A stretch of DNA of 64,000 bases from Polyporus tsugae (lineage: Eukaryota > Basidiomycota > Agaricomycetes > Polyporales > Polyporaceae): positions 248,001-312,000 of the forward strand of contig JAHRBS010000008.1 of NCBI GenBank assembly GCA_024305745.1. Reading direction: 5' to 3'. The notes below the pieces were generated by a model. The model saw nothing but the letters and a program-made list of their open reading frames with translations, was not told the DNA's origin and did no database searches. Position numbers and translations under genes: made by a program. How positions within the stretch are numbered: position 1 is the stretch's first letter; each line of letters starts with the position of its first letter. Below are positions 53,630-62,609 of this stretch, piece after piece.

Positions 53630-56338
53630 ATGTCATCCATTCTCAAGTTTCTACCGACGTCGAGGCGACAGGAGAGCTCAGATGACGCGGCGTCCGCGAT
53701 ACCCGGAGAGCAGGTGGATGTGAAGGGAGAGAAGTCCGGAGATAGCGAATCGGAGGAGCTCCCAGAGGGTGATCTCAACCCTGGCGGGCTCTCGCTGGAG
53801 GAAGGTGCGTCCTGTGCTTGCGTTTTTGTGATGTTCTGTGGATGCTCATATGACCGTGTCAGATGCGGCCGGTGGGATGGGCCGGCATCTGGGGGTCTTC
53901 AGTTGCACCCTCCTCATGTAAGTTCGCTCGTAGTTTGCGGGTGTATGCGCAGGTTCCCATTCCTCTCCCTATAGCGTCGGCCGGATCATCGGGACGGGTA
54001 TCTTCTCCACCCCTTCCTCTATCTTGGGATCCGTAGGATCGGTCGGCGCGTCCTTCATGCTCTGGGTCGCCGGCTTCATCCTATCCTTCTGCGGTCTATT
54101 CATCTGGCTTGAGTTTGGAACCATGATACCCCGCTCTGGAGGAGAGAAGGTCTACCTCGAGGCCGTGTACAAGAAACCGAAGTATCTTGTCACCGTTATC
54201 TTCGCCGCCAATGCTATTCTCCTCGGTTTCACGGCGTCTGGTTGCATTGTGAGTTCCTGCCGGATTTTGACAGTCGGAAGAACGCCCATTAACATACCAC
54301 ATACTTCCACTTAGGTATTCGCACAGAAGTGGGTCACATCGTCTGATAGCATTCATGCGCGTACAGGATTGAATTTTGGGGCAGTATCCTTGTCACCGCA
54401 GGTCACACGGCGGACCGATGGGTGACGCGTGGAATCGCCCTCGGAGGTCAGCCGCACCCATTTCTCTCTTGCAAAGGTGACAGAATTGTTGACGTGCTTC
54501 AAACAGTTATCGCGTTCGTCACCCTGCTCCACGGCCTCACCCCGAGGCTCGGCGTTTGGGTCATGAACGTAGGTGGTCGAGAGACGGTTCTTGCGGTTCG
54601 CGCCGTTGATTTTCATTTTCGTCTTCCCTCAGGGTCTGAGCGTCTTCAAGATCGGCATCCTCGTCTTCATCGTCGTCACCGGCTGGGCTGTCCTGGCCGG
54701 GCACACCTCCGTCCAGGACCCGCACGCGAACTTCCGCGACGCGTTCGCCGGGAGCTCGCACAGCAGCAACGACGTGCGCGTTCTTTCATGCGGGACTGCC
54801 GGGCGTTAGGTCGATGCTGATGTTGGTATGGACTGCAGTACGCGACGGCGATGTTCAAAGTCCTGAACGCGTACGCGGGCTGGTCGAACGTGAACTACGT
54901 GCTGAACAACGTCAAGAACCCTGTCCGGACGCTGAAGATCGCCGGCCCGCTCGGCCTGAGCATCTGCGCGGTGCTCTACCTCCTTGCGAACGTCTCCTAC
55001 TTCGCGTAAGTGCCGGTTTCTCTCGCCTCAATGCCCGATTGGTTAGGGGAGACGGCTGACGTACGGAACGCGACGCAGGGCTGCTACGAAGGATGAGATC
55101 AGGAAATCGGGTGTTACCGTTGCCAGTTTGTTCTTCTTGAAAGTGTTCGGGCCGACGGCGCAGAAGGCGTTGACGGTGTTCGTTGCCCTGAGGTAAGCTA
55201 AGCTACTCCAGTTGATTCCATCAGATGTACGCGGCTGACACTCGTCACAGTGCCCTTGGGTGAGTCGTTTCGGAGAGACTGGACCTGGAAATAAAAACTA
55301 ACAACGTTTCCCTGGCGCTCGCGGCATATTCTAGAGTATGTTTCCCTACGCTTACGACCGAATTCGCACTAACCTTGAGACCCATAGAATGTCGTCACAG
55401 TGGTAAGTACCCAACTGCCTCTGGAGGTCGTAATGCAAATTAACTGTGCTGTAGACCTTCGCCGCCTCCCGTGTTAATCAAGAGCTCGCGAAAGAGGGTA
55501 TCCCCCTGCCCTTTGGTAGCAAGTTCTGGGCGTCGAACTGGCCTACCGGCAAATCGCCCCTCCCTGGTTTGATCGTTCACTTGATCCCTTCCGTACGTTC
55601 TATGCCTAAATCCTACCTGCTTTCCTGTTGAGTCTTACCAGAAGTGCAGGTAATCATCATCCTTGGTCCCCCGCCTGCGGTCGCATATCCCTTCATCCTC
55701 GATGTGGAGGGCTACCCAGGGCAGATCATCAACTTCTTCATCGTCATTGGCCTCTTCTGGCTCCGGTACCACAAGCCCAACACCCCGCGTCCCTTCAAAG
55801 GTTCCTCCTTCCTCCCGTTTCCCGGAATACTTCAGGTACTGAACCTTGCTGCCACAGTCTGGTTGCCTGTCGCCGTGTTCTTTTTGGCGGCGTCTGTCTT
55901 CCGTACGTCGTCGCTTTCGACCTCGCTTCTCACATCACTCCGTCCGAGTCTGACCTTGCCTCTACAGTGCTCGTCGCCCCCTTCCTCAGGCCCGCAAACC
56001 GCGTCGGCGATACCCCTCCTCTGCCTTACTACCTGTATGCTGCCCTCCTCCTCCTCGAATCGCCCCTCTTGTTTCTCACCTCCCACTCCACTACTTAGGT
56101 ACTGTCTCGTCGGCATCGCGATCATGGTCGCCGGCGTCCTCTACTGGGCGCTCTGGCGCGTCGTGCCGCGATGGTTCGGCTACGACTTCGTGCCGCGCAA
56201 GGAGAAGCTCAGCGACGGCACCGTCGTCACCGTGGTACGTCTCTCGTCCGGCCCCCTCATCGCCCTCGGAATAGCGTTTGTACTGACTGTGGGGTTCGTT
56301 CCTCAACTCTGCAGTTTTCGACGACAAGGCTAGACTAG
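53630..56338 (+). CDS. LAT-type amino-acid permease (methionine-permease-like), copy 1
   Basis: A plasma-membrane amino-acid importer of the APC superfamily, about 12 membrane spans. Eighteen exons give 549 residues: 53630-53804, 53863-53917, 53975-54248, 54315-54328, 54385-54446, 54507-54568, 54633-54773, 54839-55005, 55079-55192, 55251-55259, 55335, 55388-55402, 55455-55592, 55650-55800, 55858-55902, 55968-56034, 56099-56234, 56315-56338. Residues 1-58 are a charged cytosolic tail. The first helix has the substrate motif GRIIGTGIFSTP (LAT consensus G-x-x-I-G-S-G-I-F). Later landmarks are WLEFGTMIPRSGGEKVYLEA, YAGWSNVNYVLNNVKNP, SRVNQELAKEG and FWLRYHKPNTPRPFK. Exon 11 is a single A that completes a Gly codon; without it the frame fails. 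Family members import methionine or other neutral amino acids; the exact substrate is inference. Confidence 0.92.
55335..55335 (+). other. Single-nucleotide exon of LAT copy 1
   Basis: The base A lies between a 75-nt intron (55260-55334, GTGAGT to TTCTAG) and a 52-nt intron (55336-55387, GTATGT to CCATAG). It joins the GG of the preceding 9-nt exon to give GGA, followed by AATGTCGTC. Skipping it shifts all downstream exons out of frame. Confidence 0.8.
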
Positions 56339-56874
56339 AGGTGGGGACTCGGACTCCCCCTGTCGGACTCACGCCACTCACTCGCTAACTCTAACTTATT
56401 ATTGAGTTGAACATACGCTTGGTTAATTGTCGTGTGGTTGTTGTACACAGGGTTACAGTAATTGTTGTCTAACGTTTGTTTTGCGTACGGAATGTCATTA
56501 TGCAGGCTCGTATCATGATGCTCTTGGGGATTGGACGGCTTGGGCAATCGGGCGGGCGCCTTCTGTGTCTTCCGTAGCCAAATTTCTGGTACGACAATTG
56601 AACGAGAGTTGACGGGGACACGGATGGGACATTGTATGTTCAACTTGGAAATTATTGAAGTGCACCATGACGCTCGGCTTCACCCTATCGTGCGACAGAG
56701 GCAGGCGCTAACATGTCCGTCTTGTTCAACCGTTTTTGGTTTTGCAACGTAACTTCGTTCAACCGTCCAACCGTCCACACGAGAGCAAAGAATATTGCTC
56801 GCAACCGAGCCCAACACAAGTATATCATCCCTTAGCGTTATTAGATGTCACTAATGAGCTTTTTAAAATGCAGA
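56339..56874. other. Spacer between LAT copy 1 and truncated F-box
   Basis: It holds the 3' flank of copy 1 and a divergent version of the F-box promoter; a stretch with AAGAATATTGCTCG near 56796 resembles the equivalent DNA at about 60795. No other gene is seen. Confidence 0.55.
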
Positions 56875-57147
56875 ATGGCGGTCGCGAGACTAAACACGGA
56901 CGGATGAGCATATCCTGCGAATTTCTACAGAGGTCTACGATCACACTGCTCCCTTTCCCGGCCCTCGCCCTCATTCGCTCGGCCTTACATCCTATCGCGA
57001 TCCTACGGTTTCTTTCCACATATCTCACTGGGAGTGCCTCAATCCGCCGATTCCGTTCCTTGTGTTCGCCGATCTTGTCAGGGCGGGCGGGACACATCCG
57101 TGCGCTGCCCGGGCTGTCGACTTTGGATGGCCTCGCACTCGCCACAT
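56875..57147 (+). pseudogene. Truncated F-box gene, copy 1
   Basis: This is the 5' part of the gene at 60869. It starts with the same ATG context (ATGCAGAATGGC) and MAVARLN, then hits a stop within 11 codons after frame changes. DNA similarity to the intact copy continues through ATCCTATCGCGATCC and GGGAGTGCCTCAATCC to about 57115. The sequence then switches to the flank of the second transporter. It is a by-product of the tandem duplication and should not encode a protein. Confidence 0.8.
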
Positions 57148-57639: not shown

Positions 57640-60336
57640 ATGTCTTCCCTCCTCAGGTTTCTACCTATTTCGAGGCGACAGGAGAGCTCCGACGATGTAG
57701 CATCTGTGATACCTGAAGAGCAGGTTGATGTGAAGCAAGGGAAGTCCGGAGATAGCGATTCGGAGGAGCTCCAAGGGGTGGAGCTCAGCCCTAGCGGGCT
57801 CTCATTAGAGGAAGGTGCGTGCTGTGTCCTTGGGATATTCTGTAAATGCTCATGCAGCCACCTCAGATGCGGCCGGCGGGATGGGTCGGCATCTGGGGGT
57901 CTTCAGTTGCACGCTCCTCATGTAAGTTCGCGCACATGTCGCGCGTGTCGGTGCAAGTTCAGATCTTTTTTATACAGTGCGGGCAAGATGATTGGGTCGG
58001 GTATCTTCTCTACCCCGTCTTCTATCCTGGGATCCGTAGGGTCCGTCGGCGCGTCCCTCATGCTCTGGGTCCTCGGCTTCATCTTGTCGTTCTGCGGTCT
58101 ATTCATCTGGCTCGAGTTCGGCACCATGATACCCCGCTCTGGAGCAGAGAAGGTGTACCTCGAGGCTGTTTACAAGAAACCTAAATATCTTGTCACAGTT
58201 ATCTTCGCCGCCAACGCCATTCTCCTCGGTTTCACGGCCTCTGGTTGCATTGTGAGTTCCCGCCGGATTTGGATAGTCAGCAGGACGCCTAATAACATGT
58301 CAATATCTCTCTGTCTAGGTATTTGCACAGAAGTGGGTCACATCGTCTGGTATCGCTCGAGCGGGTACGGGATTGAAGTTTCGGGCAGCATACTTGTTAC
58401 CGCAGGTCACGCGGCAGAACGATGGGTTACGCGCGGGATTGCGCTCGGAGGTCCGCTGCGTCCACTCTCGTCTTGTGAACACGACGAAATGGTTGACGCG
58501 CTTGCCACAGTGATCGTGTTCGTCACCCTGCTCCATGGCCTTGCGCCGAAGCTCGGCGTCTGGGTCATGAACGTAGGTTGAGCAGCCGTTCTTCCGTTTC
58601 GCTGCGTTATCTGATATTGTTTTTTATTTCGTCACAGGGCCTCAGCGTCTCCAAGATTGTCATCCTCATCTTCATCGTCATCACAGGCTGGGCAGTCTTG
58701 GCGGGGCATACCTCCGTCCAGGACCCGCACGCAAATTTCCGCCACGCGTTCGCCGGAAGCTCACACAGTAGCAACGACGTGCGCGTTCTTCATGCCGGAC
58801 TACGGGGCGTTCGGTTAATGCTGACATTGATGTCGACTGCAGTACGCGACGGCGATGTTCAAAGTGCTCTTCTCGTACGCGGGATGGTCGAACGTGAACA
58901 ACGTCATGAACGACGTCAAGAACCCCATACGGACGCTGAAGATCGCCGGCCCGCTCGGTCTCGCCATCTGCGCGGTGCTCTACCTCCTTGCGAACGTCTC
59001 CTACTTCGCGTAAGTGCTGTTCCCTTGCGACTCGATGCGATTAGATTGGGGAGAGGGCTGATGCAAGTCGAACGCGCCGCAGGGCTGCCACAAAGGAGGA
59101 GATCAGGACGTCGGGTGTTACCGTCGCAAGTCTGTTCTTCCGCAAGGTATTTGGGGAGAAGGCGCAGAAGGCGTTGTCTTTTTTCGTTGCCCTGAGGTAA
59201 CCTACCTTATTCGACTTCAGCAAATGTACATCGCTAACTCGTGTACAACAGTGCCCTTGGGTAAGCGGTTTCTCAAAAGAAAGGCCAAGAGATCGGAGCT
59301 GACAAAGTTTCTATGGCGCGCGCAACATTCTAGAGTACGTTTTCCCTATCCTGTGACCGACCGCGTGCTGACCATAACACCCGTAGAATGTCGTCACCGT
59401 CGTACGTATCCACTGCCATCTGGAGGTCGGAATGGATCATAACCAAACCATCCTCTAGACCTTCGCCGCCGCCCGTGTTAACCAAGAGCTCGCGAAGGAG
59501 GGTATCCCCCTGCCATTCGGTAGCAAGTTCTGGGCGTCGAACTGGCCTACTGGCAAATCGCCCTTCCCTGGTTTGATCGTTCACTTGATCCCTTCCGTAC
59601 GCCCATGCCTACATCCTCCCTGCTTTCGTGTTGGGTCTTACCAAAAGCGCAGGTAATCGTCATCATCGCTCCTCCGCCTGCCGTCGCCTACCCGTTCATC
59701 ATCGACGTGGAGGGCTACCCAGGGCAGATCATCAACTTCTTCATCGTTATTGGCCTCTTTTGGCTCCGGTACCACAAGCCCAACGCCCCGCGTCCATTCA
59801 GGGGTTCGTGCCCCCCCTCTCTCTCTCTTTGTACTCGCTTCGCACAAACTGAACATCGTTGCGACAGTGTGGTTGCCCGTTGCAGTGTTCTTCCTGGCGG
59901 CGTCCGTCTTTTGTGCGTCCTCACATGTTCCACCGACTTCCTCGTATCCCTCTGTCTGACCTTTGCTTCTCAGTGCTCGTCGCCCCCTTCCTCAAGCCCG
60001 CGAACGGCGTCGGCGATACCCCTCCGCTGCCTTATTACCTGTATGCTGTCCTCCTTGTCGGAATGCGTATCCTCTTTCTCACCTCACTGTCGCTTTCACG
60101 TCCATTAGGTACTGCCTTGTCGGCATCGCAGTCATGGCCGTCGGCGTCCTCTACTGGGCGTTCTGGCGCATCGTGCCGAGATGGTTCGGCTACGACTTCG
60201 TGCCGCGCAAGGAGAAGCTCAGCGACGGCACCGTCGTCACTGTGGTGCGTCTCGTCCTCCTCGTCGCCCTTATGGTAGCATTGGCACTGACTTTGGGGTT
60301 CTCTCTCCGTAGTTCTCGACGAAAAAGCTCGACTAG
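57640..60336 (+). CDS. LAT-type amino-acid permease (methionine-permease-like), copy 2
   Basis: A tandem paralogue of 53630-56338, also 549 residues from 18 exons of identical length: 57640-57814, then a 55-nt exon, 57978-58251, 58319-58332, 58389-58450, 58511-58572, 58638-58778, 58843-59009, 59083-59196, 59252-59260, 59334, 59387-59401, 59459-59596, 59653-59803, 59868-59912, 59974-60040, 60109-60244, 60313-60336. The first helix has GKMIGSGIFSTP, the exact LAT consensus where copy 1 has Arg and Thr. YAGWSNVNNVMNDVKNP differs slightly from copy 1, so substrate preference may differ. It ends in FSTKKLD (FSTTRLD in copy 1). The 1-nt exon at 59334 is flanked by introns of 73 and 52 nt. No lesion was seen, so both copies look functional. 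Confidence 0.93.
59334..59334 (+). other. Single-nucleotide exon of LAT copy 2
   Basis: The base A lies between introns 59261-59333 (GTAAGC to TTCTAG) and 59335-59386 (GTACGT to CCGTAG), in the same place as in copy 1. It completes GGA before AATGTCGTC and is required for phase. Confidence 0.8.
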
Positions 60337-60868
60337 ATGGGGGACCCGGGCACTGTCGACGTTCTGATTCGCTCGTGACGACCACCAGTAACTTATTGTT
60401 GATTTTGAACATCACCTTGGTTAACTGCGGAGTGTTTGTTGTACTAGGGTAATAATGGTTGTTTATCATTTTTCTGCCACAGAATACCATCATGCCTCCC
60501 GTACATCACGTTATTTGGTGAATCGGACGGTGTGGCTTCCGCGTTCCATCCGAGAGATACTTTGCTAAGTATCTACATAGTGCTGACTCGAAGCGAATGG
60601 GACGAGAGGCGGTGATGCCAGTGGGCCTTCAAGAGTGGGCCCGATCATGAGTAGGCGGGCTGGCGCTCCGAGTCAGCGTTCCCCGATCGTGCCACAGAAG
60701 CAGGCGCTATACTTCTTGTGACGCAGTGGTGACCTTGCTCCCAGCTTCCACACTGCACCGTCAGGCTGTTTCAACCTTGCCCACAAGAGCACCGAATATT
60801 ACTTGACAGTATAAAGCATCTCATTTCTTAGCGTCTGCGCATGTGCTAACTCGCCTCTCAAATGCAGA
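60337..60868. other. Spacer between LAT copy 2 and F-box gene
   Basis: It holds the 3' flank of the transporter and the F-box promoter. A CTCAAATGCAG just before the ATG looks like a 3' splice site, so a 5' non-coding exon is possible. Confidence 0.55.
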
Positions 60869-62609
60869 ATGGCAGTTGCGAGACTAAATGTGGACGTGCT
60901 AACCTATATCTGCGACTTTCTTACGGACGTCTCACATATCCTTTCCTTGGCCCTCACCTGCTCAGCCCTACATCCTATCGCAATCCGATGGCTACTTTCT
61001 ATGCGTCCCGTCTATCTTACGGGGAGTGCCTCAATCCACCAATTCCATTCTTTCGTGTTCGCCGATAAACTTGCCAGGGCGCGGCACATCCGCGCGCTCG
61101 AGATTGGGACTCGGCCACGCCTTCGCCAACTCCCAGAGGCGACCCCGGCCGATGACGATTCCCTTGTCGTCGACATCCTCAACCTGTGTCCACGTCTCGA
61201 GCGCATCTCCGTTGTTTTTAGAGACCGGCGCACCGACGACCCGCGCATCTCCAACGTGATCGCTGTTATCCAGAGCCTCCGCTCGCTCTCTGTCCATGGC
61301 AAGCTTGCAGATACGGTCGCCTTCTTCCACCAGATCCATGCCCCCCTCCGTATGCTCGGCATCCACTGCCGTAAGCCGAGGGGTGGCCGCTGGTCCCCTG
61401 CCGCTCTCAAGAAATTTCTCCCTTGCTTTGCGTCGACTCTAGAGGAACTCGAGCTTATCACGTTCCAGAGCGGCCCAAATAAAATACAAACCTTCTCGAC
61501 GCCGTCACGATCTGTCTTCAGCATGACGCAGTATCCTGGCGTGCGCTCGTTCTCCGTGACCGCATTCGGGGAGATGCCCTTGCTCGACCACCTGCAGCAC
61601 CTCTTCCCGGCACTCGACGGCATACGTTCACTCTCCACCTTCGGCATGTGGACCAACGAGGACGAGTTTGCCGGTTTGCGCGCCGCCAACCAACGCGCAC
61701 AGGAAAGCGACGGAGACAACCCGCCCTCCCGCCCGTGGAAGAAGCTCAACCGGGTTGTCTGCAATGTGCTCATGTTCTATGTGCTAGACCTCCGCTGTCC
61801 GGTCCGCCTCATCATGCTCGACAGCGGTTCCGCGTACAGAAAGCGTTATATCACTGAGGCCCTGCGCGAGAATCCCGTTCCTCGACTGAAGCTGTCGCTC
61901 CGGCTGAGCCACGGGCTTGGCGTGTTTGAGGGGCTATTTCCTCCAGAACTGGGAGGGACGCTCACGCATCTCACCCTCTTCTGTGAGGATGATCAATATG
62001 CCCAGGGCGACGCGGATGCGGCCACCATTGCGCGGCGCCGATGGGACGACCTCCTCGTGCGTGCTTTACCATAACGTCGCATTGACTCTCGTTAACGTAG
62101 CCGCTCGTACAGGACAAGATGAGCTCCTCGCTCCAGCCTCTGCAAAATCTCACCCATCTCCGCATTGTCTTCCACTGCAACATCCATCACCCCTACTTCT
62201 CCCCTGACGCACGCGCGGAGGAACTTGAACTTGTGCGCGCCCTCCGGGGACCCGCATTCGATTCCGCACAAGAGACTGTTGCCTCGCTCGTCCGCCCGCT
62301 CCCGTCCTTGGAGTACGTCTTCCTCACGACCGCCGGGCATCTCGCGCCCTACGGTAGTTCCCAGGTAGATGAGCGGTGGCATGTTGCCCGGGCTTGGCGT
62401 GTTGCGGAGCCGCCCACCGACGGGATAAAGGATGGATGGCCGGTTCTTGTGGGGCTGCACGACGAGGTCGCGGAGACGATCATTCGGAAAGAGGAACTTG
62501 TGCTGTCACAGGCGGATGAGGTGAGTTTGTTGGGTTTATGATGCTTGAGAGATGAAGCTAAACACTGTGCTCTGGGGTGCAGGCGGTGCTTCGCAAGTTT
62601 GAGGTTTAG
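60869..62609 (+). CDS. F-box-like protein with LRR-type C-terminal region
   Basis: Three exons (60869-62056, 62113-62520, 62583-62609) give 540 residues. The first 45 residues resemble an F-box: LNVDVLTYICDFL, then ILSLALTCSALHPIAIRWLL, the usual SKP1-binding helices of mushroom F-box proteins. The rest has loosely periodic leucine-rich segments (LRSLSVHG, LRMLGIH, LEELELITF, LTHLTLFCED, LTHLRIVFHC) that probably form a solenoid for substrate binding. If so, it is the adaptor of an SCF ubiquitin ligase. The last exon has only nine codons, ending AVLRKFEV. Introns of 56 and 62 nt keep phase. Its target is unknown. A truncated copy lies at 56875. Confidence 0.8.

Follow-up and report, generated by a model that had tools for sequence, protein, structure and literature searches.

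A predicted one-base exon recurs in three amino acid permease genes of the fungus Polyporus tsugae

Known one-base exons

One-base exons stand at the lower limit of what the spliceosome can treat as an exon. They are very rarely reported. Nuclear genes with such an exon in the limited literature searched are APC11, VPS55 and CYP621A.

In Arabidopsis APC11, a single A that the reading frame requires lies between two GT-AG introns. The interval is 422 nt long, and the proof came from cDNA and mutants. The authors favour intron definition and sequential removal, according to their account (PMC4674806). In plant VPS55, a 1-nt exon absent from annotations affects a membrane protein. It is described as conserved in land plants, with RNA-seq and RT-PCR as proof; among the duplicated genes of flowering plants, one clade only retains it (PMC8831610). 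The third example is Fusarium CYP621A, where the exon is the middle base of a glycine codon in a conserved motif, the G in AGGGT. The usual models of this ascomycete gene are wrong. Its interval is 139 nt in F. graminearum, the exon is conserved across orthologues, and 18 RNA reads are reported (PMC12940212). Its authors count it as the second such exon and as the first from a fungal gene (PMC12940212); the VPS55 publication (PMC8831610) predates that paper.

Other systems are more loosely related. In stwintrons, two adjoining short fungal introns are removed consecutively, and one interrupts a splice element of the other; the same source takes fungal introns to be recognised across the intron (PMC6616335). 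MEPDB lists plant microexons of 1-15 nt, a range from which further plant one-base exons may exist (PMC12409088). A placozoan mitochondrial single-base exon is reported (PMC5436844), and P450 exons down to 6 nt are described in the basidiomycete Phanerochaete (PMC1184071). A search of limited literature on mushroom microexons showed no basidiomycete one-base exon.

The permease gene considered here resembles APC11 in its single, frame-required A between two GT-AG introns. It differs in being fungal and predicted from DNA, with a 128-nt interval, flanking exons of 9 and 15 nt, and three copies. Like CYP621A, it has the base inside a conserved glycine codon, but as the third base, an A in AGAGT, and in a basidiomycete. 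In contrast to VPS55, all three close copies have the base. Like stwintrons, introns 10 and 11 are short and adjoining, but both are complete and a coding base stands between them. A stwintron is rejected for this locus: donor, branch-like site and acceptor are intact in each intron, and the frame is wrong if the entire stretch from exon 10 to exon 12 is spliced out.

The permease gene and its exon map

The gene lies in a window of 64,000 nt, positions 248,001 to 312,000 of contig JAHRBS010000008.1 (assembly GCA_024305745.1). Its features, all on the forward strand of the window, are as follows.

53630..56338, forward: LAT/MUP-type amino acid permease gene, copy 1; 18 exons, coding sequence 1650 nt including stop
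55079..55192, forward: exon 9, 114 nt, final bases CTG AG
55193..55250, forward: intron 9, 58 nt
55251..55259, forward: exon 10, 9 nt, TGCCCTTGG
55260..55334, forward: intron 10, 75 nt, gtgagt...tctag
55298..55302, forward: branch-like CTAAC of intron 10, branch A 33 nt from the intron end
55335..55335, forward: putative one-base exon 11, a single A, third base of the Gly codon GG-A
55336..55387, forward: intron 11, 52 nt, gtatgt...catag
55369..55373, forward: branch-like CTAAC of intron 11, branch A 15 nt from the intron end
55388..55402, forward: exon 12, 15 nt, AATGTCGTCACAGTG
55403..55454, forward: intron 12, 52 nt

The model has 17 GT-AG introns of 52-80 nt each, and exons 9 to 13 measure 114, 9, 1, 15 and 138 nt. 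A first-pass annotation had placed the 9-nt exon, the single A, the 15-nt exon and the introns of 75 and 52 nt; these coordinates are exact. Its 18 exons and 1,650 nt are likewise exact, but its 550 codons count the stop, so the product has 549 residues.

Membership in the LAT/MUP-type permeases follows from the family profile: the protein is an AA_permease_2 (Pfam PF13520, E 9.2e-95, residues 68-503). Its PDB matches are b(0,+)AT and LAT1 chains, and the segment SALGNVVTV across the junction aligns ungapped to the b(0,+)-type chains with the glycine matched. Among the matches listed, the top relatives are Ganoderma models named “high affinity methionine permease”, with at most 95% identity.

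The reading frame and the single base

Direct joining of the 9-nt and 15-nt exons had been said to give the wrong frame, and it does: copy 1 then reads SALGMSSQ and a stop. Without the A, the proteins of copies 1, 2 and 3 end after 362, 401 and 356 residues. Treating A55335 as an exon, as proposed in the first pass, is the sole canonical splicing solution found that keeps SALGNVVTV.

In copies 1 and 2, a single position between the 9-nt and 15-nt exons can remain as a retained base when two canonical introns (GT-AG, GC-AG and AT-AC types counted) are removed. Copy 3 has two such solutions, one of which (78+55 nt) is at the homologous place. In all three copies the base is flanked by the AG and GT of complete introns.

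A single shifted intron was also considered, with donors from -9 to +12 and acceptors from -13 to +11. Each copy offers three in-frame candidates. Two read SALG-stop in every copy, and the third, with a GC donor, is ruled out because it deletes A-L-G. One merged intron would span 128, 126 or 134 nt, and the other introns of the three copies measure 52-82 nt.

A wider enumeration allowed up to four introns of 45-160 nt, with splice scores close to the range of the genes themselves or higher. It gave 180 parses of copy 1, nine of them open and in frame. Among the eight of these nine that were listed, the 9/1/15 parse has the top family score (143, next 114) and the top splice-site total (48.7, next 44.6). 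The one-base exon is used in seven of the eight, and SALGNVVTV is kept in only one. Copy 2 has nine open parses among 70; one without the one-base exon (SALGMSSPSYTFAA) is open, with a score of 94 vs 131. For copies 1 and 2, then, the frame is lost without the base, and no other canonical junction was found that restores the conserved protein. Copy 3 gave 40 parses, and its two open ones include the one-base exon and leave out exon 12. Its 9/1/15 parse falls outside the enumeration because its last acceptor scored under the cut, an outcome that counts against copy 3.

A55335 is predicted, with high probability, to be a one-base exon between two short GT-AG introns.

Recurrence in the genome

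A genome search with the protein returned 37 matching pieces. Besides the two copies of the window, they include a complete third copy, L039, on contig 6, the distant relatives L040 and L041, and a single weaker match, L037, on contig 7. A pattern search with the 9-nt exon as query was uninformative, with 305 forward and 262 reverse matches.

57640..60336, forward: tandem paralogue, copy 2, same 18-exon layout, 1650 nt
59252..59260, forward: copy 2 exon 10, 9 nt
59261..59333, forward: copy 2 intron 10, 73 nt
59334..59334, forward: putative one-base exon 11 of copy 2, a single A
59335..59386, forward: copy 2 intron 11, 52 nt
59387..59401, forward: copy 2 exon 12, 15 nt
L039:2655-2812: one-base exon region of copy 3, contig 6, same genome

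The 18-exon layout and the exons 10 to 12 of 9, 1 and 15 nt are common to all three copies, and the single base is always A. Introns 10 and 11 measure 75+52 nt in copy 1, 73+52 nt in copy 2 and 78+55 nt in copy 3. The base is needed and present in 3/3 close copies found by the search, which may have missed others. The feature had been described for copy 1; it is not peculiar to that gene. The one-base exon is very probably real in three genes.

Other shared features accompany it. A 14-nt exon 4 (54315-54328 in copy 1, 58319-58332 in copy 2) is also common to all three copies. Downstream of the two window copies, the stretches 56866-57106 (after copy 1) and 60860-61098 (after copy 2) share 72% identity, which suggests that the tandem duplication took part of the neighbouring sequence along.

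In the distant paralogues L040 and L041 the codons read GGC-AAC and GGG-AAC, unbroken within one exon. The two intron positions one base apart are absent from both, and the flanking introns thus belong to the close-copy subfamily.

Database relatives and their gene models

Three protein searches (best 120 of 1,277, 995 and 1,228 matches) yielded 134 distinct proteins. SALGN, SAIGN or SSLGN is intact in 100 of these 134 listed relatives, so many of them may lack the one-base arrangement. A looser intact-region pattern gives 98 intact, 32 broken and 4 without the anchor, two of which read SALGN. The 34 listed models without a SALGN-type string include several from Trametes and other bracket fungi; annotation errors are a possible cause.

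All seven proteins named Ganoderma among the 134, from three species, are broken at the junction; this counts named entries, and unnamed ones could include more. Two of them carry an intron-10-like peptide up to the base and then continue NVV. The peptide of G. leucocontextum P0001 is identical at 16/19 positions to the translation of copy 1 from intron 10 to the base, and that of G. adspersum P0006 at 9/18 to the corresponding translation of copy 2 (0/20,000 shuffles as good for each). The same donor after the same base therefore appears to be present in those separately deposited genomes. In several others, for example P0008 (VSM), P0011 (VCF) and P0047 (VCP), the residues after the glycine would be a translated donor, a merely suggestive hint from protein models. 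The Trametes versicolor peptide in P0027 was rejected as an intron translation (9,264, 9,888 and 3,757 of 20,000 shuffles were as good for copies 1, 2 and 3).

These models raise the prospect of a longer exon. In this account exon 10 is skipped, a piece of intron 10 through A55335 is used, and 18-19 residues replace S-A-L-G. The two deposited models read exactly so: their frame stays open across the intron, and the donor that follows the base is the same. Yet the residues lost would be those that align ungapped with b(0,+)AT and are intact in the 100 listed relatives. The acceptor that copy 1 would need (ggagag, read by hand) has G at -3, where 45/45 others have C or T, although the copy 3 intron 11 acceptor has G there as well. 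Each peptide also matches strongly only its own copy (P0001 against copy 2 gives 5/19, with 253/20,000 shuffles as good), which is unlike the expectation for a conserved exon. P0001 and P0006 look like a gene-finder workaround, and a longer exon is very unlikely.

At the DNA level the arrangement is conserved in two paralogues of the same genome; for two Ganoderma species the support is indirect, through protein models.

Splice signals and chance expectation

The chance of such a site was estimated from 4,000 dinucleotide shuffles of the combined intron stretch (128 nt in copy 1). A site was counted when it read AG-N-GTRNG, had no G before the AG, and left both introns at least 45 nt long. It arose in 0.35%, 0.95% and 2.6% of shuffles for copies 1, 2 and 3. 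When each acceptor was also required to have a branch-like YTRAY 12-45 nt upstream, these values became 0.05%, 0.025% and 0.15%. A looser donor, GTR, gave 1.4%, 3.2% and 9.7%, or 0.2%, 0.25% and 0.85% with the branch-like sites. The AG-A-GT arrangement is a real feature of the sequence.

In all three copies a branch-like YTRAY (CTAAC, CTGAC or CTGAT) lies 15-37 nt upstream of both acceptors. Overall, YTRAY occurs 5-45 nt from the acceptor in 33/51 introns. The donors of introns 10 and 11 are ordinary, ranking at 14-45 of 45. The acceptors of these introns are weak in copy 1, at or above only 7/45 and 3/45 other acceptors, and in copy 2 (6/45 and 3/45). In copy 3 the intron 10 acceptor is strong (42/45) and that of intron 11 (GTTGAG) is below all 45. 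Including exon bases in the score lowers the ranks further in copies 1 and 2; in copy 1 the acceptors reach 1/45 and 0/45, and the intron 11 donor 2/45.

Weak acceptors leave room for partial skipping. It could be proposed that the microexons are mostly skipped or mis-spliced into alternative isoforms, for instance SALG joined to TFAAS, with the one-base exon as one outcome. Some of the in-frame parses involve skipping, and the model of G. sinense P0097 reads SALGAFAA. Elsewhere, an artificial 1-nt exon in potato invertase is skipped in 33% of transcripts, as cited in PMC4674806, and plant VPS55 transcripts are reported with and without theirs (PMC8831610). Against this, transport should suffer if a conserved helix loses five residues, and conservation across three copies favours use. 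Predominant skipping has little probability.

An origin of intron 11 as a duplicate of intron 10 was also tried and rejected; their similarity is not above that of shuffles (127, 160 and 69 of 500 as good).

Divergence and selection

Between copies 1 and 3, dS is 1.1 and dN is 0.11-0.12 on each side of the junction. The three pairwise comparisons give dN of 0.04-0.13 vs dS of 0.31-1.13 on both sides, and the exons flanking the junction are under purifying selection. Across their 17 introns, copies 1 and 3 are 52-60% identical (mean 56%), against 52% for non-homologous introns in the same alignment. Introns of copy 3 share 50-65% identity with their counterparts in copies 1 and 2, where unrelated intron pairs average 52%. 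Identity so close to the non-homologous level means that intron sequence is nearly saturated, and AG-A-GT is still in place.

An assembly error or pseudogene, in which a base is missing at the edge of exon 10 or 12 and a single ordinary intron suffices, gains something from the donor lying inside a GGG run in all three copies, where any third base gives Gly, but it is scarcely credible given a deficit shared by three diverged copies in one assembly, the broken models in all seven named Ganoderma proteins of three species, a dN/dS of 0.10-0.14 in the post-junction exons indicating purifying selection, and an AG-A-GT with two branch-like sites that it leaves without explanation.

Copy 3 has some features of its own. 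It has Val where the conserved Asn follows the glycine, a strong acceptor before the one-base exon, and GAG at the next acceptor. It may be drifting or spliced differently.

A model for splicing of the one-base exon

Introns 10 and 11 are both short and complete, of the GT-AG type, and each has a branch-like site to itself. In the model favoured here, recognition of each would take place across the intron. With a single base between the acceptor AG and the donor GT that follows it, the two could not be engaged at the same time, so the introns are presumably removed sequentially. Either order would leave GG-A-AAT. The first pass had stressed that such an exon has no room for internal enhancers; the space is indeed lacking, but enhancers would be unneeded if the introns are recognised singly. 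The arrangement would have arisen earlier than the split of the three copies, through two intron positions one base apart.

A broader proposal is more tentative, and its chances are somewhat below even. The one-base exon may be of old origin and common among the methionine-permease genes of Polyporales, possibly also of other mushrooms, long kept as an obligatory two-step splicing event that silently corrupts many deposited models.

Significance

The permease exon is an addition to a very small known kind. If the prediction is true, it adds a further gene, a second fungal phylum and three diverged copies, and such an exon would be inheritable through duplications. The locus would also provide a short natural substrate for testing the order of intron removal. 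Finally, the one-base exon gives a way to explain why a series of public gene models is broken.
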